Assembly: GCA_002898375.1 (NCBI GenBank)
Contig: BEIN01000022.1
Coordinates: forward strand, 1 to 41,108
Source: a bacterium HR37
GTDB taxonomy: Bacteria > Desulfobacterota_D > UBA1144 > Nemesobacterales > CSP1-2
Length of the DNA: 41,108 nucleotides
Direction: 5' to 3'
The position numbers and the translations under genes were made by a program. Below the pieces are notes generated by a model, which saw only the letters and a program-made list of their open reading frames with translations, was not told the origin of the DNA and searched no databases. Numbering within the stretch: position 1 is the first letter of the stretch; the number at the start of each line of letters is the position of its first letter. Positions 1,386-37,917 of the stretch are shown one piece after another.

Positions 1386-3281
1386 CTAACCTGTACCCAA
1401 AATACGTGCAACCGTATCTTGAATCTGGGGAAGGGTAAAGGGTTTGTTGATAAAAGAGAAGATCCCCTCAGACATTACACGGTCTACAATTCCATCCTCG
1501 CTTCTCCCGCTTAAGATAACCACAGCTGAATCTGGAGATATATTTTTTATTTCCCTTATCACCTCCAGCCAATCCCTTTCCGGTCTTCCCAGATTTAGAA
1601 AAACTATATCGAAATGATTGTTCTTTATAAGCTCTATAGCAGACTCATTGGTACTGGCAATAAGAACGTTATGCCCGGCCTGTGAGAGAAACTCTCTTAT
1701 AACCTCGCATATAACCTGTTCACTATCAACCACAAGTATGTTACCTTTCCTTGTGGTTTGAACCCTTTTACCCACAAGGGAACGCTCTGATCTTTCCCTT
1801 TCAGTGTCTGAAAGGCGTTGAATGTTGGGAAGCATTATCGTAAAGGTAGTTCCCTTTCCAACCTCACTGCTAACACTTATCTTTCCATCATGTCTCTCAA
1901 TTATCGCATAAACCATAGAAAGCCCAAGTCCAACACCTTTTTCCCCACTGTTTCCCTTGGTTGTAAAGAAAGGTTCAAAGATTCTAGGCAGGTTCTCTTT
2001 TGGAATCCCAACTCCGGTATCTGAGAAGTCTATCTTTACATAATCACCTTCCAATTCAACGTTTATTGCTATAACACCACCTTCAGGCATAGCATGCTTT
2101 GAGTTTATAGCCAGGTTTAGTATAACCTGTTGAATCTCTCCAGGGTTCATCCTTATCGGTGGAATCCTTCCATAGTGCCTTACAATTCTTATTCCTTCTT
2201 TCTCAAAGGTATGTTCAACAAGGGCTAAGGCATCCTCAATTACCTCATCTATAAGAGCAAGCTGAAAGTTTTCCTCTCCCCGCTTGGAAAAAGACAATAG
2301 CTTCTTTAATATATCCACAGCCCTATTTGATGCCTTTTCCACAACCTTTAGGTCCTTTTTAATCTGCTCCAAGTCATTTCTTGACATTGCCAGCCCTGTG
2401 TAACCCAGAACAGCAGAGAGTATGTTGCTAAATTCGTGAGCAATTCCAGCTGCAAGCTGACCAACAGCAGACATCTTTGCAGACTGAATAAGCTGTGCCT
2501 CAAGTTTCTTTTTATCTGTTATATCCTCTACAACGGCTACAACACCAAATATCTCATGACTTTCAAAATCAACAAGAGGGGAGAGGTTTACCTCCAGAAA
2601 CTTATCCCCGTATTTAATCTCATGCTTTGAAGTATAGAATGGATCCTTCAGTATATGTGGAACAACAGAAACAAAATTTATGTTCTGTATAATATCACTG
2701 AGTTTCTTTCCTATATGATAGTCTCCAAAAATACTAAGCGTTTTTGAGTTTGCACTTTTTATAACCAAATCCCTATCCGTTGTTATTATGCTTTCATGGG
2801 TACTGTTCATTATATTTTCAAGTTCCCTATTTCTTTCCTTTACCTTCAACTCAAGGTTTGCATTGAGTTCTTTAAGCTCTTGAAGAAGACGTCTGTTTTC
2901 CTCGATAAGCTCGTATCTTTCTACAGCATTCTTTATAACGCTTTTTAGCTTATTATAGTCAAGCGGCTTGGTAAGATAATCAAAAGCCCTCTTCTTAACC
3001 GCCTCTATTGCTGTCTCAATTGAGGCAAACCCGGTCATTAAAATAACTGGCAGATTCGGATTTAATTCACGAACGCTCTCAAGAAGGTCTATACCGTTTT
3101 TCTCGGGCATTCTTATATCGGTAAGAACAGCATGAAAGGGAACTTCCTTTAGAAGTTGAATGGCCTTATCACAGCTAGATGCAGTTCTTACCTCGTATCC
3201 CTCTCCTGAGAGAATGTCAGAGATTATTCTTAGAATTAAAAGCTCATCATCAACCACCAAAATCCTTTTAGGCTCTGCCAT
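1386..3281 (-). CDS. Hybrid sensor kinase: receiver-PAS-histidine kinase-degenerate receiver
   Basis: This 631-residue cytoplasmic signalling protein has no membrane segment. Residues 5-120 form a receiver with acidic pocket DDE, phosphoacceptor D55 (LTDIRMPEK), T83 and K105. A coiled coil (125-160) and a PAS domain (155-260) follow. The HisKA domain carries H282 (AAGIAHEFSN) and the ATPase domain has N393, DTGVGIP and GVGLGL boxes. A second receiver (513-631) is degenerate: N563 stands where aspartate is expected, and S520 breaks the acidic pair, while K613 is kept. Its start overlaps the upstream kinase gene by 14 bases, so the two are probably translationally coupled. A likely route is that the membrane kinase phosphorylates D55; this is inference. 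Confidence 0.93.
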   Translation of the reverse strand: MAEPKRILVVDDELLILRIISDILSGEGYEVRTASSCDKAIQLLKEVPFHAVLTDIRMPEKNGIDLLESVRELNPNLPVILMTGFASIETAIEAVKKRAFDYLTKPLDYNKLKSVIKNAVERYELIEENRRLLQELKELNANLELKVKERNRELENIMNSTHESIITTDRDLVIKSANSKTLSIFGDYHIGKKLSDIIQNINFVSVVPHILKDPFYTSKHEIKYGDKFLEVNLSPLVDFESHEIFGVVAVVEDITDKKKLEAQLIQSAKMSAVGQLAAGIAHEFSNILSAVLGYTGLAMSRNDLEQIKKDLKVVEKASNRAVDILKKLLSFSKRGEENFQLALIDEVIEDALALVEHTFEKEGIRIVRHYGRIPPIRMNPGEIQQVILNLAINSKHAMPEGGVIAINVELEGDYVKIDFSDTGVGIPKENLPRIFEPFFTTKGNSGEKGVGLGLSMVYAIIERHDGKISVSSEVGKGTTFTIMLPNIQRLSDTERERSERSLVGKRVQTTRKGNILVVDSEQVICEVIREFLSQAGHNVLIASTNESAIELIKNNHFDIVFLNLGRPERDWLEVIREIKNISPDSAVVILSGRSEDGIVDRVMSEGIFSFINKPFTLPQIQDTVARILGTG

Positions 3282-5793
3282 ATCCCTTTACTCCCCTTGC
3301 ATTGTCTTGTTGATTAACAGGGAGTTCCACCACGAAGGTGGTAGATTTTCCCTTTTCGCTGCTTACCACTATCTTCCCCTTATGCCCCTCAACTATTTTA
3401 TAGCTTACAGAAAGCCCAAGTCCAGTCCCTTTATCCTTTTTGGTAAAAAACGGGTCAAAGATCCTGGGCAGATCCTCCTCATCTATGCCTATTCCTGAGT
3501 CGGTAAAACTTGCAAAAACGCGATTCTGGTCTCCGTTGCAAATACCCGTTACAACCTTAAGCTCACCACCTAATGGCATTGCCTGAATAGCATTTAACAG
3601 GATGTTTATAAATACCTGCCAGAGCTGATTCGGATCACCCATAATCTGAGGGAGATTAGGATCAAACTCGGTTTTAAGCACTATACGATTATCCTGAAGC
3701 TGTTTTCTTAACAAAACCAGAGCATTCTCAAGAATAGAGTTTATGTTAACAGGCTCAAAGTGTGGAGGTTCCATCTTTGAGAACTTAAGCAAGCTATCAA
3801 TTAACCTGTTTGTTCTATCAATCTCATGCTTTATATACTCAAGATACTCTTTCATAATGCTTGCCTTCTCCCCCTCAACCATCTGGTAAAGGTAGTACCT
3901 TGCCCCCTCTATGATATTTAAGGGATTGCGGATCTCATGAGCAATTCCAGCTGCAAGCTGACCAATTGCAGACATCTTCTCAGCCTGAATAAGCTGTGTC
4001 TGTGTTTCCTGAAGCCTTCTGTTGGTTTCCTCAAGCCTCTTGGCATAGTCTTCAACCAGCTTAAAAGCAAATGAGTTTTCAATAGCAATTGCACTCTGGT
4101 TAGCAAGGGTTCTAAGGAGCTTTATATCACGGCTTGAATACATAAGGCCGGATTTTTTCTCCCCAAGTACAAGTATACCCACTAACTGGGCTCTAAAGAA
4201 AAGTGGAATCATTAAAGAGGCCTTGAGCTGGTTAAACACCCTAGTTAACTCTATCCTTGATTTCACATACCTGCTATCAGATACCAAATCCTCTTTAAAT
4301 ATTTCCTGCTTATAGCTATAAAAGGAGGAGACCAGTTTATCATCCGATTTAATACAAAATTCCCTATCTCTAAGTTCATCAAGTGTTGTAATGTAAATAC
4401 GATAATCACCGGTATTCTGGTCTAGAATAAGAAGAGAGGCTGAAGCTATCTGCATTGTATCCGTTACGGTAGATATTATCTTGCTGGCTATCTCATCGAG
4501 GTTTAAAAGAGAGGTCATTGCAGAGCTTATCTCAGATAAGGTCTTGGTATAATCATAGTTCTTTCTAAAGAAAGCCGTATCAATAAACCCCTGAATCCAT
4601 CCCTTTATGGGATTTAACGCAACTACCAGAAAAACACTAAGTATTAAGAAGAAGAACGGGTTTTCCCATCCTCCATGTTCGGCAAAGAGCATATTAAATA
4701 CGAGCACGGTCAAGGCAAAGAACGCAACAACTATAGATGTTAACACGCTGTAAAGTATGCTCTTTTGAATTATCACATCTATATCAAACAGTTTGTGCTT
4801 TACAATTGCATAAGCAATGGAGAGAGGAAAGAAAATCACAGGAAGAGCTACATATGTAATGCTGTTAAACTCAAAAACCACAATCAGAAACGCAAGCAAA
4901 GCAGGGATGAAAAAACCCAGAAACGAGCCAAGCAAAATAGTTTGAGCCCTTTGCTTCTCCAGCACACCGCTGGGACGATAGTAGCCTATAGCTGCAGAAA
5001 GTGGTATAGATACACCACCCAGTAACAGATATACCCAGACAATTGTATCAATCCTTTTCCATATTGAGGGGGAATCCACATATACTAACTGTAAGGCAAA
5101 AATAACCCCTGAGAAAAATAAAGGAATCCAGAACACATAAGGCTTCATTCTAAAAATGGGTTTCTTATTAGGGAAAACTAGAGATAAACTAATCAGAAAA
5201 GCAGGTGTAAATATCTGAGCAAGGTAAGCAATATTTAAAGAATAAAAAGGGGAATAGGTCGTCTGGTAATTGAAATCCTCTATAAACCAAATCCCTATCG
5301 AGATGCACATTAAGAGGAAAATCTTACTTACCGTTAATTGAGGTTTTAAAACATAGACCACAACACCGCTGATCAGAAAGATTAAGCCTATAGTAAACTC
5401 TATACCAAATATCTGCAGAAGGTCATCGAAGGTAAACTTCATGGTGGGAATACTAAACTCGTACAGCTTACCATCCCTGAGAACCAAATAGCTCCTAGGT
5501 GTGCCAACAGGGGTATCGTCAACCAAATCGTAGAGCTCATACGCACTGGAAACCGGATGTCCATCTACCTTTAGGATCTTATCGTAGGAACGAATACCTA
5601 ACTCCCGGGATAGCGACCATCTAGGCAGGGTAACCTGACTTACAATTAAGGAGTTATAAACCAGAAACCCGGGAAAAGGTCTATTTACCCACTTTGTAGC
5701 TTGGATTAGAGCATTTACTGATAGAGAGAAAGAAAGCAAAATCAGCAGAAAAAAAATCGTTTTTTCAAGAGAGAGGTTATGTAGATACCTCAT
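3268..5793 (-). CDS. Membrane sensor histidine kinase with PDZ-like, multi-TM and GAF domains
   Basis: The 841-residue protein starts with a membrane anchor (10-30) and then a periplasmic PDZ-like segment (about 45-115, with DKILKVDGHPV). Roughly eight transmembrane helices span 130-400, ending in KHKLFDIDVIIQKSILY, the linker typical of this kinase type. A GAF domain (428-575), a coiled coil and HisKA with H619 (AAGIAHEIRNPL) follow. The HATPase domain has DSGIGI and GTGLGL boxes. It should autophosphorylate in response to a membrane or periplasmic signal, probably passing phosphate to the receiver of the next gene, which it overlaps. The 5' leader contains a cyclic-di-GMP-I riboswitch, so expression is expected to follow c-di-GMP levels. 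The ribosome site is weak. Confidence 0.95.
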   Translation of the reverse strand: MRYLHNLSLEKTIFFLLILLSFSLSVNALIQATKWVNRPFPGFLVYNSLIVSQVTLPRWSLSRELGIRSYDKILKVDGHPVSSAYELYDLVDDTPVGTPRSYLVLRDGKLYEFSIPTMKFTFDDLLQIFGIEFTIGLIFLISGVVVYVLKPQLTVSKIFLLMCISIGIWFIEDFNYQTTYSPFYSLNIAYLAQIFTPAFLISLSLVFPNKKPIFRMKPYVFWIPLFFSGVIFALQLVYVDSPSIWKRIDTIVWVYLLLGGVSIPLSAAIGYYRPSGVLEKQRAQTILLGSFLGFFIPALLAFLIVVFEFNSITYVALPVIFFPLSIAYAIVKHKLFDIDVIIQKSILYSVLTSIVVAFFALTVLVFNMLFAEHGGWENPFFFLILSVFLVVALNPIKGWIQGFIDTAFFRKNYDYTKTLSEISSAMTSLLNLDEIASKIISTVTDTMQIASASLLILDQNTGDYRIYITTLDELRDREFCIKSDDKLVSSFYSYKQEIFKEDLVSDSRYVKSRIELTRVFNQLKASLMIPLFFRAQLVGILVLGEKKSGLMYSSRDIKLLRTLANQSAIAIENSFAFKLVEDYAKRLEETNRRLQETQTQLIQAEKMSAIGQLAAGIAHEIRNPLNIIEGARYYLYQMVEGEKASIMKEYLEYIKHEIDRTNRLIDSLLKFSKMEPPHFEPVNINSILENALVLLRKQLQDNRIVLKTEFDPNLPQIMGDPNQLWQVFINILLNAIQAMPLGGELKVVTGICNGDQNRVFASFTDSGIGIDEEDLPRIFDPFFTKKDKGTGLGLSVSYKIVEGHKGKIVVSSEKGKSTTFVVELPVNQQDNARGVKGYGRA

Positions 5794-5863: not shown

Positions 5864-5966
5864 GAAGCCTTACTTCGGCAACCTCTTACCATAGGCCACA
5901 CAAACCCTTAGGTAGAAGGCTTTGCTCCCCACCCTTTCGGATGGTTCACCCTTTCGGTAGGACTTC
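5864..5966 (-). ncRNA. Cyclic-di-GMP-I (GEMM-I) riboswitch aptamer
   Basis: Read on the minus strand, P1 forms between GAAGUCCUAC (5957-5966) and GUAAGGCUUC (5864-5873): ten pairs with one C-A mismatch. Inside lies CCAUCC-GAAA-GGGUGG (5929-5944), a six-pair stem with a GAAA tetraloop. The matching 11-base tetraloop receptor CCUAAG (5907-5912) / UAUGG (5889-5893) is in the second helix. The conserved AGCAAAGCC joining segment and GGUUGCCGA 3' segment are present. The AGGG strand aligns G20 of the Vc2 numbering as G, which is the c-di-GMP-binding form; A at this site marks cGAMP binders. It sits 70 bases before the sensor kinase start. No clear terminator follows, so the expression platform is unresolved. 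Confidence 0.92.
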
Positions 5967-6025: not shown

Positions 6026-7648
6026 TTAAGCAACCCTTTTAGCTCTAGACGCACCTGGGCCTATAAGACCAAACTCCCTCCCAACCTTCTCCAAAATCTC
6101 CAAAGCTGTATCTAAATCCTCTCTGGTATGGGTTGCCATAACTGTGGCCCTAAAGCGAGTCTGGTTACGGGGAACCGCTGGATAAGGAATAGGATTTATA
6201 AAAAGCCCTTCTTCGTGAACCCTCTTACTCATCCTTCTAAGAAGCAGTTCATCACCTATGATTATGGGGATTATAGCTGATTCGGAGTTTTCAACTATAT
6301 TGAAACCCAGATGCTTTAGGTTTTCTTTAAAGTACCTTATGTTTTCCCAGAGCCTCCGAATACGCTCAGGCTCATTCTCCATAACCTCTATTGCAGCCAA
6401 AGCCCCGGCAGCCAGCACAGGTGAAAGGCTGGTTGCAAAGAAATAGGACCTTGCAAAGCATCTCAGGTAGTTAACAACCTCCTTTGAAGAGGCAATAAAA
6501 CCTCCTAACTGCCCTAAGGATTTACTGAGTGTTCCCATTACAATGTCTACCTTTCCCTCCATCTTAAAGTGGCTTGCAGTTCCCCTTCCTCTATCGCCAA
6601 TCACCCCCGTTGCATGAGCGTCATCAACCATAACCCTTGCTCCGTATTCTCTTGCAACCTCCATGATTTCAGGAAGAGGAGCTATATCACCGTCCATGCT
6701 GTATATACCATCAACCACTATGAGTTTCCCTTCACAGGTATCCTTATTCCTTTCTAGCACCTCCCGAAGGCTAACCATGTCAGAGTGCCTAAACGTTCTG
6801 AACTTTCCGCTGCTCATTGTGCATCCGTCTATAATGCTTGCATGGGCCAACCTATCGATTACTGCCAGATCCCCTTCCCTAACCAGAGCAGATAGACAGC
6901 CCACATTCGTTGAATACCCGCTGGAGAATACAACCGCATCCTCGCATCCCTTTAACCTCGCCAGTCTGGCTTCCAATTTTTTATGCACATCAAAAGTGCC
7001 TGCAAGCATGGGAGCAGAAACCGCACCAACACCGTACTTCTCCGCTGCCTCCCTGGCAGCTTTTATAACCTTCGGATGTGTAGCAAGACCAAGATAGTTA
7101 TTGCTTCCCATCATAATCATCTCTCTCTCTTTACCAGCTACATCATCGAAAATGATTGCTCTGTTTCCACTTTCTGAAAGCAGAGGTCTTCTATAGGTGT
7201 AGAACCCTTTCTTCTTCATATCCTCTATCCAAGCCCAAACAGGTTTTGTTTTATCAAATAGGTCTTTTCCAGGAACCTTTAAAAAATCAAATAAGGTATA
7301 ATCATCAGAGTTTATAACCAATTCACAATCCAAACCTTCATAAAACCTCTGAAGTCTCTTCCTGTCCAGATCGTAAAGGTTTATAAATCTAATACCCATT
7401 CCAGTGAATCCAGGCTCCCTCTTGGTCCATACAACCTCACTATAGGCCTTTATTGGAAGTGATTCAGCAGGCAACCTAAATTCAAGCATCACCTTTGTTC
7501 CAGGACTCATCTGGTTTTTTCCTTCTACAAACATCCCTCCAAGTGAGAGGTTTTTGGCAACCCCTATTGGCTCCTGTGAGCTTCTTAAAAACACCTCAAG
7601 ATTTACAGGTTTTCTAACACCACACCTTCGCTCTAAAGCCAAATTCAT
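6026..7648 (-). CDS. PilZ domain fused to PLP-dependent alpha-oxoamine synthase
   Basis: Residues 1-105 are a PilZ domain. The c-di-GMP-binding signature is intact: R8-x3-R12 (RRCGVR) and N33-x-S35-x2-G38 (NLSLGG), and the domain closes with GMGIRF. Residues 150-540 are an alpha-oxoamine synthase, the family of glycine C-acetyltransferase, 8-amino-7-oxononanoate synthase and serine palmitoyltransferase. These condense an amino acid with an acyl-CoA and lose CO2. Visible motifs are GSNNYLGL (181-188), the PLP-ring pocket VDDAHATG (D342, H345) and the Schiff-base lysine K376 (GTLSKSLGQLGG). Which acyl-CoA and amino acid are used cannot be read from sequence. It lies 40 bases after the outer-membrane barrel gene. 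Allosteric control by c-di-GMP is the obvious inference. A GGGGGGA ribosome site supports the start. Confidence 0.93.
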   Translation of the reverse strand: MNLALERRCGVRKPVNLEVFLRSSQEPIGVAKNLSLGGMFVEGKNQMSPGTKVMLEFRLPAESLPIKAYSEVVWTKREPGFTGMGIRFINLYDLDRKRLQRFYEGLDCELVINSDDYTLFDFLKVPGKDLFDKTKPVWAWIEDMKKKGFYTYRRPLLSESGNRAIIFDDVAGKEREMIMMGSNNYLGLATHPKVIKAAREAAEKYGVGAVSAPMLAGTFDVHKKLEARLARLKGCEDAVVFSSGYSTNVGCLSALVREGDLAVIDRLAHASIIDGCTMSSGKFRTFRHSDMVSLREVLERNKDTCEGKLIVVDGIYSMDGDIAPLPEIMEVAREYGARVMVDDAHATGVIGDRGRGTASHFKMEGKVDIVMGTLSKSLGQLGGFIASSKEVVNYLRCFARSYFFATSLSPVLAAGALAAIEVMENEPERIRRLWENIRYFKENLKHLGFNIVENSESAIIPIIIGDELLLRRMSKRVHEEGLFINPIPYPAVPRNQTRFRATVMATHTREDLDTALEILEKVGREFGLIGPGASRAKRVA

Positions 7649-7688: not shown

Positions 7689-9488
7689 TCACCAAAACGC
7701 TCTCCTAAGAAGGGTACTTGAACCCGTCCACCTCTTTATAAGAGGGTCGAGAGTAAGTACAAGCCTTCCCTGAAACGCAAAGGGAAAATCCGGTGGATCA
7801 GCAAGGTCTACGGAAGAAACAGTCTCTTCTATAAACGCCCTCTGACTAAGAAGGTCTTTTAGACCCCCACCGGATACAACAAAGCTGCTTATAAAATCGA
7901 ACCACAGGTGATCAAGTACTTTTAAGGTAACAGTACCCTCAAGCTCCGCTCCAAGAAACCTTCTTACCTTGGGAAGAGGTGTAACTACATCCAAGCTCAG
8001 AGCATTCCTCTCATCTACCCAGGCAAAGAGGGCCTGAGGCGTAAAGTAGACCGATTCTGTCAACCTCAATGTGCTCCATAGCCTGAAATACCAGGAGTTT
8101 ATAACACTTCCCTCAAGAGCATAGATATTGGGGATCATGTGCTTAAAAAGCAGGTTATCAACCGTATAAGCATTGTTAAAGAATATGGCATTTCCCTCAA
8201 GCTTATCAGGGGTTGTTGCATCATCACCGCTTGCCCAGCCAAACTCAGCAGCAACCACATCTACAAAAGATGGCGAAAAGCTATACCCTCCCCTTAGAAC
8301 GAAGAGGAAATTCTCGGCTGAGATATCAACATCGCTACTTCCTATAACTAGCGGAAGGGGTTCCTCTAAGTCATTTATCTCTCCAAAGATATTTTGAAGT
8401 TCAAATGTTAAAAAGAAAGAGCCAATGTTATAGTTTCCATAGAGTGACCAGTTAATGTTGTTCTCCAAATCACCGCTTAACCCTCCTCCTATATCGAAGT
8501 CATTTTGGGAAAGCAAAAACACATATCCCCCAAGCTCAAGGCTATCGCCTCTGTAGAGGGTTCCCACCCCCATCTCCCACCCACTTCCAGAGGCCCCTTT
8601 AATCAGGCTTTGCCCTTGACTCAACCTATCTATGGAGAAGGCAAACATCAACTTCTCCCACCTTTCATCGATAAGCGCAAGTGGAGCTGTATCAAACTCA
8701 AACCTATCCACTATGCTTCCCAGATCCTGATCAGGCATACTTCCGGCATTTACCAGCATCCCAAGACCCCAGTCGTACGGTTGTCGTCCAACCCATAGCT
8801 CTCCAACAGGGGTCTTTGCAACCACATACAGCGTTCTTATATCAAAGAAATCGGTATCCTCTTCTACCGGGGAAAGGACATTTCCGGAAACCGTATCTGT
8901 AACCTCTCTTAAAAGGGCACCACGAAAAGAATCAGAGGGACTTGGGGATTCAAAGAACTTTTGAGACACACTGCTGTCACCGAGCCCTCCCCACACGATG
9001 TTCCTTGCAACATCTATCTGGCTACGAAGAGAGAGGTTATCCGTTACCTTAAGCATAGGGGATAGGATAAACCTGGAATCAGCAAAGAAAACCTCATCGT
9101 CTTTGCGTTCCGTAGCCCCTATAAAGGTTGCGTTTTTAAAGAACCTTGCACGAATACGAAAATAACTTGGAAAATCAGGGTTAAAGTCAAAAATCCTTTT
9201 TAACCCACTTTCTTTTTCCTTAAGCTCTTCGGCTAGAAGTTCTTTAGCACTTTTTTGCTCAACTCTATCCCGTGCTTCAAGCTCTTCTATCTTCCTCCTC
9301 AGCTCTTCAATCTGCCTCTGGCTTTCCCTTTGAATCTCAAGAATCTTTTCCTGATTCTGTCTTTTAATTTCCTCTATCTGCCTTTTTAGGCTTTCTATCT
9401 CACTTTGCTCATCAGCACCACTTGGGAAAGCAGCCAGGGCTACAAAAAGGCAAAATGCAAAGGGACTGCATTTGGAGAAAAAACTCAT
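7689..9488 (-). CDS. Outer-membrane beta-barrel protein with N-terminal coiled coil
   Basis: A signal peptide (1-25) precedes a charged coiled coil at about 27-95, rich in EIESLKRQIEEIKRQ-type heptads. The rest alternates amphipathic strands and polar turns and ends in tryptophan (LLRRAFW), the aromatic C-terminal residue recognised by the BAM complex. The layout resembles porin-like or alginate-export-type barrels. The coiled coil may reach into the periplasm or form trimers. The 599-residue length fits a 16-18 strand barrel plus the N-terminal part. It has its own promoter and a GGAGG ribosome site, and it is followed closely by the PilZ-synthase gene. The transported substrate is unknown. 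Confidence 0.85.
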   Translation of the reverse strand: MSFFSKCSPFAFCLFVALAAFPSGADEQSEIESLKRQIEEIKRQNQEKILEIQRESQRQIEELRRKIEELEARDRVEQKSAKELLAEELKEKESGLKRIFDFNPDFPSYFRIRARFFKNATFIGATERKDDEVFFADSRFILSPMLKVTDNLSLRSQIDVARNIVWGGLGDSSVSQKFFESPSPSDSFRGALLREVTDTVSGNVLSPVEEDTDFFDIRTLYVVAKTPVGELWVGRQPYDWGLGMLVNAGSMPDQDLGSIVDRFEFDTAPLALIDERWEKLMFAFSIDRLSQGQSLIKGASGSGWEMGVGTLYRGDSLELGGYVFLLSQNDFDIGGGLSGDLENNINWSLYGNYNIGSFFLTFELQNIFGEINDLEEPLPLVIGSSDVDISAENFLFVLRGGYSFSPSFVDVVAAEFGWASGDDATTPDKLEGNAIFFNNAYTVDNLLFKHMIPNIYALEGSVINSWYFRLWSTLRLTESVYFTPQALFAWVDERNALSLDVVTPLPKVRRFLGAELEGTVTLKVLDHLWFDFISSFVVSGGGLKDLLSQRAFIEETVSSVDLADPPDFPFAFQGRLVLTLDPLIKRWTGSSTLLRRAFW

Positions 9489-11194: not shown

Positions 11195-11223
11195 ATTGTA
11201 TACCAGGGAGAACTCAGTTTCAA
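11195..11223 (-). promoter_or_regulatory. aroC promoter, possibly giving a leaderless mRNA
   Basis: The minus strand reads TTGAAA (11218-11223), a 17-base spacer and TACAAT (11195-11200). Each hexamer matches five of six consensus bases. Only TCTCCT separates the -10 from the aroC ATG, so transcription should begin at or very near the start codon. The -35 overlaps the stop codon of the upstream gene. Confidence 0.6.
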
Positions 11224-12203
11224 ATATAACCTTTATCCTTTAACCACTTTACCGTCTTCTCTATGCTCTGCTCCACAGGGGTTTGAGGAAAGCCAAGCTC
11301 ACGTACAGCCTTTGAGCTATCAAAGTACCAGTAAAATCTAGAGGCCCTTACCGAATCCACATCCATAGAGGAGTAGTTAGGAAGAGATATACCCAGTATA
11401 CGCTCCACAAAAAAAGCTGCAGCAAGGGCAACAAAATAGGGTATCTTTATGCGTGGAGCAGGTATGCCAGTAACCTTCTCAAGTATCTCAAAGACCTCTT
11501 TTATGCTAAGGTTTTTGTTTCCAAGAATATACCTTTCCCCGAGCCTGCCCTTTTGTGCAGCCAGGATGTGACCCTCGGCTACATCCTCTACATCGACAAG
11601 GTTTATACCCCCATCCATGTATCCCGGAAACTTCTTCTTACAGTACCAGACAATAAAACCACAACTTGAAAGGTATACATCCCCAGGACCTATTACGACT
11701 GAGGGGTTTACAATAACAAGTGGAAGCCCCTGTCTGTAGAGCCTTAAAGCCTCCTGCTCAGCACGGTATTTTGTATTCAGATACTGTATCCCCATATGCT
11801 CTAAGGTAAATGGAGTATCTTCGTTTGCAATCCCCCCATCAGGATTTACCCCTATTGCTGCAACACTGCTTGTATAAACAACCTTCTTTACACCCGCTTC
11901 CAAGGCAGCAGAAAGGACATTTACAGTTCCCTTTACATTTATATCCTCAAGCCGCTTGTAATCAGATTTTCTAAACGACACAAGTCCAGCTGTATGATAG
12001 ACAGTATCACACCCCTTTAGAGCCTTTCTTATGGAGTCAACATCAAGTATATCGCCATAAACCCTTTCAGCATCTATGTCTTCTATATTCAGGGTTTTGC
12101 TGGTTTTCCTAAGAAGTATCCTTACACTCTCGCCTCTTTGCACCAGCTTTCTTGCCACATGAGAACCTATAAACCCTGTAGCTCCTGTAACCAAGCTTGC
12201 CAT
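11220..12203 (-). CDS. NAD-dependent epimerase/dehydratase, HpnA-like
   Basis: This is an extended short-chain dehydrogenase of 327 residues. The NAD-binding Rossmann motif [11 protein letters not shown] is at the N-terminus. The catalytic YxxxK is visible as YLNTKYRAE, with the upstream TSSVAAIG serine motif. The closest pattern I recognise is the hopanoid-associated sugar epimerase group (HpnA) and dihydroflavonol-reductase-like proteins. The true substrate is not deducible. It starts with a clear AGGAG site and has 45 bases between it and the upstream methyltransferase. A hopanoid link would need other hpn genes; the only other hint in the window is a distant glycosyltransferase. Confidence 0.85.
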
Positions 12204-31798: not shown

Positions 31799-33172
31799 TC
31801 AACCTTTTATTTTTTCGCCCGTATATCCGTAACGCTTTAATTTATAGAGCAAAGAACGACGGCTAATACCAAGAAGCTCTGCAGCCTTTGTCCTGTTCCC
31901 TCTTGCTTTAAGAAGAGCCTTCTCTATCAATACCCTTTCGAGTCTGTGCCATGCATCTTCAAGGGAGAATGAGTCCAAAACAGGGTCTTCCACTTTAGAG
32001 TAGCCTTCCTTTGGTGTTCCAAGGTCAACCGTATCTATTATGTCCGAGTCACTTAGGATCACAGCCCTTTCTATAACGTTTTGAAGCTCTCTTACGTTTC
32101 CATGCCAAGGATACGAAAAGAGCTTATCCATAACCTCTACGCTTACACCCCTTATATGACGATTTAGCTTTTCATTGTACTTCTTTATAAAGTACTCAAC
32201 CAAACAGGGTATATCCTCTTTTCTTTCCCTTAAAGGAGGTATATGAATTGGAAATGCATTTAAACGGTAAAACAAGTCAGCTCTAAATCGTCCGCACTCA
32301 ATGTCCTTTTTAAGATCTCTAGAGGTTGCTGCAATTATCCTAACGTCTACTTTTATCGGTTTTGTGTTACCTAAACGACGGATCTCCTCTTCCTGAATGG
32401 CTCTAAGCAGTTTTGTCTGGAGACCAGGAGAAATCTCTCCCACCTCATCTAAAAAAAGCGTTCCCCCATGGGCCTCCTCAAACAAACCCCTCTTTGTATA
32501 GGTGGCACCACTGAACGCTCCCTTTACGTACCCAAAAAGCTCACTCTCAATTAAAGACCCGGGAATAGCTGCACAGTTTACAGCTACAAATGCTCCATCT
32601 CTCCTTGGGCTGTTTGAGTGGATGGCACGCGCAATGAGTTCTTTTCCGGTACCACTTTCCCCGGTTAAAAGGACTGTGGTTTTATACTGGGATATTTTCT
32701 TTGCCATATCTACAACCCTTCCCATTGCCTCACTCACAAACACTATTTCTTCGAAACCCTCTGCTTTTCCAATCTTCTTACGCAGATAGAGATTCTCTCT
32801 TTTAAGCCTCCTCCTTTCCTCAGCCATTCGCATACGGAGAATAAGCTCATCTGGGTTTATGGGTTTGTTTATATAATCATCAGCACCATACTTTACAGCC
32901 TTAACCGATGTTTCGACACTTCCATAAGCCGATATCATAATCACTATCGAACTTAGGTCACGGTTTCTAACTTCCCTTAGGAACTCCATACCATCAAGTC
33001 CAGGTAACCTTATATCACATATGATAAAATCATAGTTGTTTCCATCATCAATAAGACTTAGTCCCTCATAAGCATTCTCTGCACATTCCACGGAAAACCC
33101 TTCGTTTTTAAGGATCAAAGATAAAGTCTCTCTTATTCCCCTCTCATCATCAAGCAGTAACACCTTGCTCAT
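31799..33172 (-). CDS. NtrC-family sigma54-dependent response regulator
   Basis: The order is receiver (1-120, phosphoacceptor D53 in [11 protein letters not shown]), AAA+ domain with Walker [14 protein letters not shown], the sigma54-contact loop GAFSGA, a threonine-to-serine variant of GAFTGA, and Walker [12 protein letters not shown]. The C-terminal Fis-type helix-turn-helix reads [19 protein letters not shown]. It should open promoters held by RpoN once phosphorylated. The start is the ATG at 33172; a further 57 bases upstream are open but lie inside the kinase gene. It overlaps the kinase by 23 bases, so the two form a cognate pair. The sigma54 promoter at 19223 is a possible target. Confidence 0.96.
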
Positions 33173-34652
33173 TGCAGTACCCACCAAAAGGAAGAAGGAC
33201 TTTAAAAGTTGTTCCCTTACCAGATTCACTTTCTACAAGTATCCTTCCACCAAATGACTCAACTATCCTCTGGGAAACAAAAAGACCTAGTCCCGTTCCC
33301 TTACCGGGTTCCTTTGTTGTAAAAAACGGGTCAAATATCTTATCCATAATCCCTTCCGGAATACCAGGACCATTATCTTGAACCCTAATTTCGATATCAC
33401 CGTTAGAAGCAATCCCTGTGGATAACGAAATAACCCCACCGCTACCTACTGCATCCCTTGCATTAAGCATAAGGTTTATTACAACCTGAACGAGTTGATT
33501 CGAATCAACCCTTACCCACAGGGGCTCCTTAGAGAGGCAAAAACTTAAACGTATGTTTTTAAAAACACCTTGGTTGCTTAATATCTCCAAGGCACTCTTT
33601 ACAACCTCATTTACATCTACGTTGCAAAGCTCAAAGCCGCTAGGGCGAGCGTAGTTAAGAAGCATACGAATTATTTTATCAATTCTCTCAATTTCTTTTT
33701 GTATGTTAACAAGGAATTCTTTCTTTTTGTCTTCATCCAAAGCGTATCCTCTTCCAAGTACATCTACGTATCCCTTTATAGCGCTAAGAGGGTTTCCTAT
33801 TTCGTGTGCAATACCTGCAGCTAGCCTTCCTATAGAGGCCAATTTCTCCGAGACAACAAGCTCCTTTTGCGTACGTAGAAGCAACCTGTTTGTCTTCTCA
33901 AGCATAAAAAGGCTCTCTTTAATATCTGCTTTGCTCTTTTCAATCTCCTCATACATCCTTCTTAAAGCCATATGTAGCTCCCTTATCTCCCTTACCTCAC
34001 CCAGATTTAAGTTCTCAGGGAACCTACCCTTACTTATCTCTTCCGTAACCTTTACTAAACCGAGAACCGGTCTTACTATCCTTCGTGAAAGCAGATAGTA
34101 ACCAAAAAGGGCAATTATCAACAGATCAAGAACAATCCAAGCCGCTATTAACCTCTGGCTCCAGACCACACTTTCCTTTAAAGAAAGAAGTGGCTGGTAA
34201 ATAAGAATTGCCCCCTTTCGCTCCCCATTCCTTTGAAGAACTGAAGCAACCTTAAATCCCCTGTAAAAGTATAAAGGTGGAAGATTAATTCCCTCCAGAC
34301 GAACCAAAGTTTTTCCCGTTTTTAAGGCTTCAAGAATTAAGGGATCGTTGATACTTCTATCCCCGTATTCGGAATCAAAACCAAATACCACTTTCCCCTT
34401 AGAATCAGCAATAACCCCCCAGGCTCCTTCCTCTAGAGCACCCTGTAGAAAACCTATCCCCTCTTTAATACTAAAACCCCTTACATACATCCCCTCAAAG
34501 GCAGCTATTACGGCTTTTACCCCTTCAATCTTTCCCTGGATAGCAAACCTCTCTGTAACCTGAAAGGCAATTACACCTATAAGAAGCATGGAAACAGCTA
34601 TTAAAAAGATTATGGTAACAAGTATTTCAAACCTGAGCCCTACCTGTCTCAA
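33150..34652 (-). CDS. Sensor histidine kinase paired with the NtrC-type regulator
   Basis: An N-terminal transmembrane helix (EILVTIIFLIAVSMLLIGVI), a periplasmic sensing segment of about 130 residues, a second membrane helix (LIAAWIVLDLLIIALFGYYLL), a HAMP linker and a coiled coil precede the HisKA H-box (AAGIAHEIGNPLSA). The ATPase domain follows with DNGPGIP and GTGLGL. It should phosphorylate the adjacent regulator. The start is uncertain: no ATG fits. A TTG at 34652 with AGAGGG three bases upstream gives MRQVGLRFEIL, typical of this kinase type, while another TTG at 34709 is possible. The signal is unknown. Confidence 0.93.
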   Translation of the reverse strand: MRQVGLRFEILVTIIFLIAVSMLLIGVIAFQVTERFAIQGKIEGVKAVIAAFEGMYVRGFSIKEGIGFLQGALEEGAWGVIADSKGKVVFGFDSEYGDRSINDPLILEALKTGKTLVRLEGINLPPLYFYRGFKVASVLQRNGERKGAILIYQPLLSLKESVVWSQRLIAAWIVLDLLIIALFGYYLLSRRIVRPVLGLVKVTEEISKGRFPENLNLGEVREIRELHMALRRMYEEIEKSKADIKESLFMLEKTNRLLLRTQKELVVSEKLASIGRLAAGIAHEIGNPLSAIKGYVDVLGRGYALDEDKKKEFLVNIQKEIERIDKIIRMLLNYARPSGFELCNVDVNEVVKSALEILSNQGVFKNIRLSFCLSKEPLWVRVDSNQLVQVVINLMLNARDAVGSGGVISLSTGIASNGDIEIRVQDNGPGIPEGIMDKIFDPFFTTKEPGKGTGLGLFVSQRIVESFGGRILVESESGKGTTFKVLLPFGGYCNEQGVTA

Positions 34653-34749
34653 ATTCCCTCTTGTAGTGGTTTTTTCAGAAATTTTATATCCAAAAGAAAA
34701 ACAAACCAATAGCCCTATAACTATCTAAACAAAAAGGGGTTAAAGTCTA

Positions 34750-36912: not shown

Positions 36913-37917
36913 ATGAAGCACATAATAAGAAACTGGGTTCATATTCCAGGACTACACTGTGGCTCTACCGCTCTAAGGGACACGGTAACCTACTATGGAT
37001 ACAGGTTCTCAGAGGCACTTTGCTTTGGTCTGGGTGCAGGTTTGGGCTTCTTTTATATGAAAGCAAAGAATCTAAACCCTACAAGGATTATACATCTTAG
37101 AGGACACGGAATGGAACCCAACTTTTTTAGCCTGATAAATAAACCGACCCAATGGAAATACGAAGAGAACGAAAACATCGCCCTTGATATACTGAAGGAA
37201 TACATAGCAAATGACATCCCTCTTTTAATACAAACAGATATCTATTACCTAGATTACTATAGATCCTCTACCCACTTTCCCGGACACGTTGTATCCGTAT
37301 GGGGTTATGATGATGAAACCCAAACGGTTTTTCTAGCTGATACCGGCTTTGAAGGACTCCAACCCATATCCTACGAGAGCCTTAAAAGGGCAAGAACCTC
37401 AAAAGCACAGCCCTTTCCTCTGGAAAACAACTGGTTTGAGGTAATACTAGACAAGCCAATCCCCCCTCTAAAAGATATAATTCCAGAAGCCATACGTAAA
37501 AACGCAAAATCAATGCTTGAAGGGGTAAGAAGCCCCAGAGGTGAGTCAAGTGTAAGAATGATAAAGGTATGGTCAGATGAGCTTCCTGAATGGGAAGAGG
37601 CCAGCGATTGGAAATGGTGTGCCAGATTTGCGTATCAGGTAATAGAGAAAAGAGGAACGGGTGGTGGTGGCTTCAGATGGATTTATAGAGACTTTCTTCG
37701 GGAAGCAGAGGAGATAATTCCAAATCTAAAGGAACTCGGGCTCTCAGAAAAAATGGATACACTTGGGCACATATGGAGTGAGTTGTCTAGGGTGCTTAAA
37801 CAGATTAGCGAGAGCGAAACACCGAGGAGCTTGTTTAAGAAGGCATCATCAATGGCAAGGGAAATCTGGGAGCTGGAAGGAGAATTCTACTTAAACGTCC
37901 TCTCCAAACTACAGTAG
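36913..37917 (+). CDS. BtrH N-terminal-domain-like protein (papain-like fold)
   Basis: The first 160 residues match the BtrH_N family. Features are H15-C16 (GLHCGSTALRDTVTYYGYRFSEA), the FGLGAGLGFFY segment, H125 in GHVVSVWGYDD and D143 in LADTGFEG. Together they make a cysteine-histidine-acid set as in C39/papain-like enzymes. In butirosin biosynthesis BtrH transfers an acyl group from a carrier protein to an aminoglycoside. The C-terminal half (about 190-334) is helical and fits the DUF4872-type extension. No carrier protein or aminoglycoside genes are near, so the substrate is open. It is followed after seven bases by a HAD phosphatase gene, implying one transcript. Confidence 0.85.
   Translation: MKHIIRNWVHIPGLHCGSTALRDTVTYYGYRFSEALCFGLGAGLGFFYMKAKNLNPTRIIHLRGHGMEPNFFSLINKPTQWKYEENENIALDILKEYIANDIPLLIQTDIYYLDYYRSSTHFPGHVVSVWGYDDETQTVFLADTGFEGLQPISYESLKRARTSKAQPFPLENNWFEVILDKPIPPLKDIIPEAIRKNAKSMLEGVRSPRGESSVRMIKVWSDELPEWEEASDWKWCARFAYQVIEKRGTGGGGFRWIYRDFLREAEEIIPNLKELGLSEKMDTLGHIWSELSRVLKQISESETPRSLFKKASSMAREIWELEGEFYLNVLSKLQ

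Follow-up and report, generated by a model that had tools for sequence, protein, structure and literature searches.

Does c-di-GMP act directly on an enzyme that condenses acyl thioesters, and if so, on which branch of metabolism? This question is raised by a gene of bacterium HR37 that joins a PilZ domain, a receptor module for c-di-GMP, to a PLP-dependent alpha-oxoamine synthase (AOS). The gene lies in a stretch of 41,108 nucleotides, here called the window, which was analysed together with the rest of the genome and with related genomes.

The PilZ-AOS fusion and its conservation

The original prediction had placed an intact PilZ domain, with its RxxxR and NxSxxG motifs, at the head of a PLP enzyme with all catalytic motifs, and this description was borne out. 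The gene corresponds exactly to an open reading frame of the minus strand, and its product carries both Pfam domains (Table 1): PF07238 spans aa 6-104, with 49 bits (E 8e-13) where 22.5 are required, and Aminotran_1_2 spans aa 176-518, with 209.5 bits (E 1e-61). The ligand motifs of the PilZ domain read RCGVR at aa 8-12 (RxxxR) and NLSLGG at aa 33-38 ([D/N]xSxxG), and the active-site set H269, D342, H345, K376 (the PLP lysine) and R500 is in place. The AlphaFold model (mean pLDDT 79.8) consists of a six-stranded barrel plus helix at aa 13-105 followed by the AOS fold, for which the top PDB match was the SPT of Sphingobacterium multivorum (TM 0.94 on the target).

Table 1 Features of the PilZ-AOS locus in the window
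Feature	Coordinates	Strand	Basis
Hybrid REC-HisKA-HATPase-REC protein, 14-bp overlap with the kinase gene	1386..3281	-	Same order in all relatives
Membrane sensor histidine kinase (N-terminal TM, PDZ, multi-TM, GAF, HisKA, HATPase_c)	3268..5793	-	Domain search; orthologue co-occurrence
c-di-GMP-I (GEMM-I) riboswitch aptamer	5874..5960	-	RF01051, 59 bits against gathering 35, E 3.5e-9
PilZ-AOS fusion protein, 540 aa	6026..7648	-	ORF; Pfam; full-length in at least 14 relatives
AOS domain, aa 173-529, SPT-sister clade, PLP Lys K376	6062..7132	-	Pfam, tree, fold
Linker, aa 105-172, signature NSDxYxLxDF...DLFxK...KGxxxYRRPL	7133..7336	-	Alignment with relatives
PilZ domain, aa 6-104	7337..7633	-	PF07238, 49 bits; motif invariance; fold
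TIGR04551-like/Alginate_exp-like outer-membrane barrel with coiled coil	7689..9488	-	Both matches below curated cut-off
HpnA/3beta-HSD-like SDR reductase	11220..12203	-	Domain search; syntenic in relatives

Relatives were gathered by an alignment-based scan of genome contigs; a scan with the single protein gave no matches. They are metagenome-assembled genomes of Candidatus Dadabacteria, a few of them filed under an older name, e.g., Deltaproteobacteria or Desulfobacterota. The PilZ-AOS fusion is encoded by at least 15 of the 58 Dadabacteria genomes analysed, in one of which it is cut at a contig end, and three more (G023, G035 and G041) hold fragments of the operon at contig ends. Because the same full-length fusion recurs in relatives, an origin by chance or through a chimeric contig is excluded. 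Across 14 homologues the PilZ motifs are constant, with no substitution at R7, R8, R12, S35 or G38 and with only N or D at position 33. In the catalytic domain H269, D342, H345 and R500 are likewise invariant, and K376 is kept in 13 of the 14. Mean pairwise identity rises from 40% in the PilZ domain to 52% in the linker and 63% in the AOS domain. A fast-changing PilZ domain that keeps exactly its ligand residues is the pattern that would be expected under selection for binding.

The PilZ domain might instead be a localisation or protein-interaction module deaf to c-di-GMP, attached to a constitutively active enzyme. There is precedent for this, as some PilZ domains do not bind c-di-GMP (e.g., the non-functional variants in PMC12943098), and one relative (G006) retains its PilZ motifs though its catalytic lysine is lost. 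However, the invariance of the three arginines, the serine and the glycine within an otherwise divergent domain speaks against this possibility, as do the c-di-GMP riboswitches of the same operon described below, and we regard it as very unlikely.

In G006 (L037:8899-10551) the PLP lysine is replaced by histidine (TLSHALG, codon CAT) while the PilZ motifs are intact. As the lysine is lost and the riboswitch is degenerate, the G006 protein is probably a pseudoenzyme and the enzyme inactive in that lineage. The AOS-fused PilZ domain is the sole one found in each of three genomes, namely the window genome, G004 and G006. In a Spirochaetes genome (L075:5563-7167), an AOS belonging to the wider clade described below has a PilZ-like N-terminus of its own, which is very divergent, carries RKAPR and NISLKG motifs and was not recognised by Pfam PilZ.

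Affinities of the catalytic domain and a probable link to ceramide-type synthesis

In a tree of 44 AOS sequences, the Dadabacteria fusion proteins formed one clade (support 99/96). This clade is nested in a larger one (99/97) having the linker signature NSDxYTLADF, whose members come from Desantisbacteria, Omnitrophota, Neomarinimicrobiota, Spirochaetes, Verrucomicrobia and others, so that the linker of PilZ-AOS is common to PilZ-less relatives from other phyla. The larger clade is sister to the known SPTs (99/97 and 100/99) and stands apart from BioF/Kbl/ALAS (96/97); PilZ-AOS did not fall inside the clade of known SPTs in this tree. The best sequence and fold matches of the domain were the SPT structures 3a2b and 8guh. 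Tree, sequence and fold agree in placing the AOS domain as sister to SPT, and not with BioF, Kbl or ALAS.

The window protein reached none of the curated AOS equivalog cut-offs. It scored 421.3 bits against the 640 required by the SPT model NF047600, was likewise below NF047599 and NF047603, and obtained 400.9 against 426.45 for bioF and 216.8 against 428 for the CqsA/LqsA model NF005526. For this reason we do not class it as an SPT, yet it appears to work most like one. Among the chemistries originally proposed for the enzyme, the sphingoid-like one gained support from a YghO-family domain that is fused to it in relatives (see below). The biotin-type one is unlikely and was set aside: the genome has a separate bioF as its second AOS gene (477.3 bits, above the 426.45 cut-off), and the tree places PilZ-AOS beside SPT.

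The closest characterised enzyme, the SPT of S. multivorum, shares with PilZ-AOS the PLP fold type I, all catalytic residues and about 42% identity across the AOS domain in the structure alignment. It lacks a PilZ domain, a riboswitch and a fused acyltransferase, and differs in a loop on the substrate side, where nearly all reference AOS enzymes keep an arginine that is replaced by Pro213 in the window protein. In the same loop, Ala212 stands where reference enzymes have Ser, Thr or Val. Because Pro213 replaces a near-universal arginine, the amino-acid partner may differ from serine. The enzyme could then use glycine, alanine, cysteate or another acid and yield a non-sphingoid aminoketone, for which the two loop substitutions and the missed SPT cut-offs would argue. 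Against it stand the sister position to SPT and the ceramide-synthase-family domain linked to the enzyme in relatives, and we consider such a product rather unlikely. A different amino-acid substrate would in any case be compatible with regulation by c-di-GMP.

The linked domain is a C-terminal extension of about 385 aa found in at least nine relatives (G001, G003, G005, G008, G013, G019, G027, G037 and G043), with fragments in G035 and G023; the L041 protein reaches 923 aa. The extension spans two Dadabacteria lineages, and a fold search identified it as a tandem GNAT. A profile built from the nine sequences matched YghO of Escherichia coli BL21 over its full length (146 bits, E 1e-45) and did not match FemAB-like acyltransferases. 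In E. coli BL21, the neighbours of yghO are spt, acp and genes for a fatty acyl-AMP ligase and for a reductase of the epimerase type. The yghO gene is listed with CC_1154 as the N-acyltransferase needed for dihydroceramide, as part of the rhodobacterial ceramide gene set (PMC9386255), and the Caulobacter acyltransferase has been named bCerS (PMC11087976). In a distant genome (G058) an SPT-like and a YghO-like gene are adjacent but separate. The fusion and the adjacency of the same two families provide strong evidence of a functional linkage to ceramide-type synthesis. Sphingoid-type chemistry is favoured because this ceramide-synthase-family domain is fused to the enzyme in relatives.

The window protein ends at aa 540 and lacks the third domain, as do the proteins of G004, G006, G012, G016 and G020; in the 44-sequence tree, the domain was either gained twice or lost several times. 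Searches of the window genome found neither a YghO-like domain nor a stand-alone FemAB-like acyltransferase. In G004, an OleD-like keto-reductase SDR that resembles E. coli CerR (27% over 325 aa) lies between PilZ-AOS and the kinase gene. The rhodobacterial spt/cerR/bcerS set (the acyltransferase being yghO or CC_1154) is similar in linking an SPT-like enzyme to a YghO-family N-acyltransferase, with a CerR-like SDR in G004. The Dadabacteria differ from it in having a single polypeptide, a c-di-GMP sensor domain and a riboswitch, and the window genome in being without the acyltransferase domain.

The c-di-GMP-I riboswitch and candidate sources of c-di-GMP

A second predicted c-di-GMP sensor, a c-di-GMP-I riboswitch that the original prediction did not include, is present in the operon. 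PilZ-AOS and the histidine kinase gene are 232 bp apart, and the riboswitch lies in this gap, with 80 nt separating it from the start of the kinase gene; it is the only Rfam gathering match within the window. On the minus strand, these 80 nt contain no terminator-like site. Nine of the 14 loci with complete context (the window and 8 of 13 others) have c-di-GMP-I riboswitches in the operon, in at least two positions, front and middle: in seven loci (L040 to L046) the riboswitch stands in front of PilZ-AOS, and in L037, the locus of G006, just after it. None reached the gathering score in L036, and none was detected in L038, L039, L047 and L049 even at E values up to 1. The loci of PilZ-less relatives yielded no riboswitch either. 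As the window genome has three c-di-GMP-I riboswitches in 2.42 Mb, one would land by chance in a given same-strand operon of 8 kb with P ~0.005; in the other genomes this chance is 0.2-1.5% per genome, the relatives not being independent of one another.

The genome also encodes candidate sources of the ligand. It has four GGDEF matches, at least three of them uninterrupted, and all carry Asp and none the Hypr serine at what we take to be the guanine-recognition site. The base at the equivalent of GEMM-I position 20 is G in eight of the nine riboswitches and U in that of G006; in the window riboswitch it is the G at model position 11, which we take as the equivalent by mapping the Vc2 structure onto the Rfam model. 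The known switch to cGAMP is G20A (PMC6274999). With G at this position and GGDEF domains that lack the Hypr serine, cGAMP is disfavoured as the ligand.

The invariant PilZ ligand residues, the riboswitches of the operon and the intact GGDEF proteins strengthen the idea that c-di-GMP controls an acyl-thioester condensing enzyme, in which the protein would bind c-di-GMP and respond in its catalysis. The operon appears to be controlled at the RNA level and probably at the protein level.

Of the four GGDEF matches, one (L002, G000:C7:70456-70935) is interrupted inside the domain by an in-frame TAG. The other two c-di-GMP-I riboswitches (L103, G000:C1:1431-1521; L130, G000:C3:102452-102553) precede genes of apparently secreted or surface proteins of ~447 and ~237 aa.

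Operon neighbours and the proposed role of the system

The kinase gene followed by the hybrid kinase gene is found after PilZ-AOS in every locus with downstream sequence, either directly or past one or two genes; the intervening genes include a methyltransferase in G006 and G016 and the OleD/CerR-like SDR in G004. A full-length or nearly full-length orthologue of the kinase occurs in 18 genomes, and all 18 have PilZ-AOS or a fragment of it at a contig end. Among the remaining 40 Dadabacteria genomes, only G002 has such a kinase, and a distant one (30%).

On the other side, the barrel gene lies 40 bp upstream of PilZ-AOS and is likely part of the same operon. It is also upstream in L036, L038 and L039; the loci with this gene are only those without the fused GNAT domain. 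The SDR encoded further upstream is a possible keto-reductase whose membership in the system is uncertain.

Parallel arrangements were found around PilZ-less AOS genes with the NSDxYTLADF signature. In L065, L066, L068, L069, L070 and L074, from several phyla, a FemAB-like (PF04339) acyltransferase follows the AOS, and histidine kinase and receiver genes follow as well except in L070, which reaches a contig end. We know of no earlier description of this cluster of PilZ-less AOS, acyltransferase and two-component genes. Because PilZ-less relatives in other phyla show the parallel arrangement, the association of an AOS with an N-acyltransferase and a two-component system appears to be the older theme, to which the PilZ domain and the riboswitch would have been added later. 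In L066, from Neomarinimicrobiota, a REC-HD-GYP protein, likely a c-di-GMP phosphodiesterase, is encoded just upstream of the AOS (L066:7685-8782), a further link to c-di-GMP.

An AOS gene beside a multi-TM histidine kinase is also the arrangement of the CqsA/CqsS and LqsA/LqsS loci. The main rival explanation is thus that the AOS, like CqsA and LqsA, makes a diffusible amino- or hydroxy-ketone autoinducer sensed by the neighbouring membrane kinase, with c-di-GMP gating its production. The sensor and hybrid kinase that follow the enzyme in every locus, with perfect co-occurrence, agree with such a role, as do the acyltransferase, kinase and receiver proteins preceded by PilZ-less relatives in other phyla. 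However, PilZ-AOS scores ~217 bits against the CqsA/LqsA model, no better than the BioF of the same genome (221); it is sister to SPT; and a fused ceramide-synthase-family acyltransferase is more in keeping with a membrane lipid than with a small signal that diffuses. The locus differs further in its SPT-like enzyme, in a hybrid kinase without DNA-binding output, and in the presence of PilZ and the riboswitch. Taken together, we judge an autoinducer unlikely.

Based on these findings, we postulate with moderate confidence that the locus is a c-di-GMP-gated operon for a sphingoid or ceramide-type lipid, in which PilZ-AOS acts as a c-di-GMP-gated, SPT-like AOS. Its substrates would most likely be a long-chain acyl thioester and a small amino acid such as serine or alanine, and condensation would give a 2-amino-3-ketone, the precursor of a sphingoid base. 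In relatives with the third domain, the same polypeptide would go on to N-acylate the amine, yielding a ceramide-like lipid. Through the riboswitch, c-di-GMP would act on the expression of the whole operon in most relatives and of the kinase pair in the window; through the PilZ domain, it would act on the enzyme itself, altering either its conformation or its position at the membrane. The kinase and the hybrid kinase would form a linked signalling pair, probably reporting the state of the envelope or of the lipid. Against this reading we counted the missed SPT cut-offs, Pro213, the lack of a YghO- or FemAB-like domain in the window genome, the loss of the PLP lysine together with U20 in G006, and the five complete loci without a riboswitch at gathering score. 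More tentatively, and with slightly less than even confidence, we propose that the whole ceramide-type branch is under dual control, by the riboswitch on the mRNA and by the PilZ domain of an enzyme that both condenses and N-acylates on a single chain, and is coupled to the two-component pair, which would be dedicated to it.

All parts of this system belong to known families, and it is the combination that appears to be new. We found no description, in the open-licence literature, of a PilZ domain fused to a PLP enzyme or of c-di-GMP control of sphingolipid synthesis. We saw no PLP or lipid-backbone enzyme among the c-di-GMP effectors that we found listed in a recent review, whose outputs are motility, pili, exopolysaccharide, transcription and the like (PMC12564702). 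The nearest parallel is with BcsA cellulose synthase and other PilZ-regulated enzymes, which also have PilZ on the same chain as a biosynthetic enzyme, and c-di-GMP relieves the autoinhibition of BcsA (PMC12564702). The product of BcsA is a polysaccharide, whereas the catalytic part of PilZ-AOS is a lipid-type PLP enzyme.

If our proposal is correct, c-di-GMP would also set the synthesis of a sphingolipid-type membrane component, tying the biofilm messenger to envelope chemistry, and bacterial sphingolipid synthesis would gain a direct regulator. Under dual control, membrane composition would, like exopolysaccharide, be switched directly by c-di-GMP. The riboswitch and the PilZ domain on one operon, together with the single-chain fusion to a ceramide-synthase-family domain, make the idea open to in vitro assay without culture of the host.

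Elsewhere in the window, we observed a second two-component pair, consisting of a HAMP histidine kinase and a sigma-54 NtrC-type regulator (31799-34709), and a protein with BtrH_N and DUF4872 domains (36913-37917).
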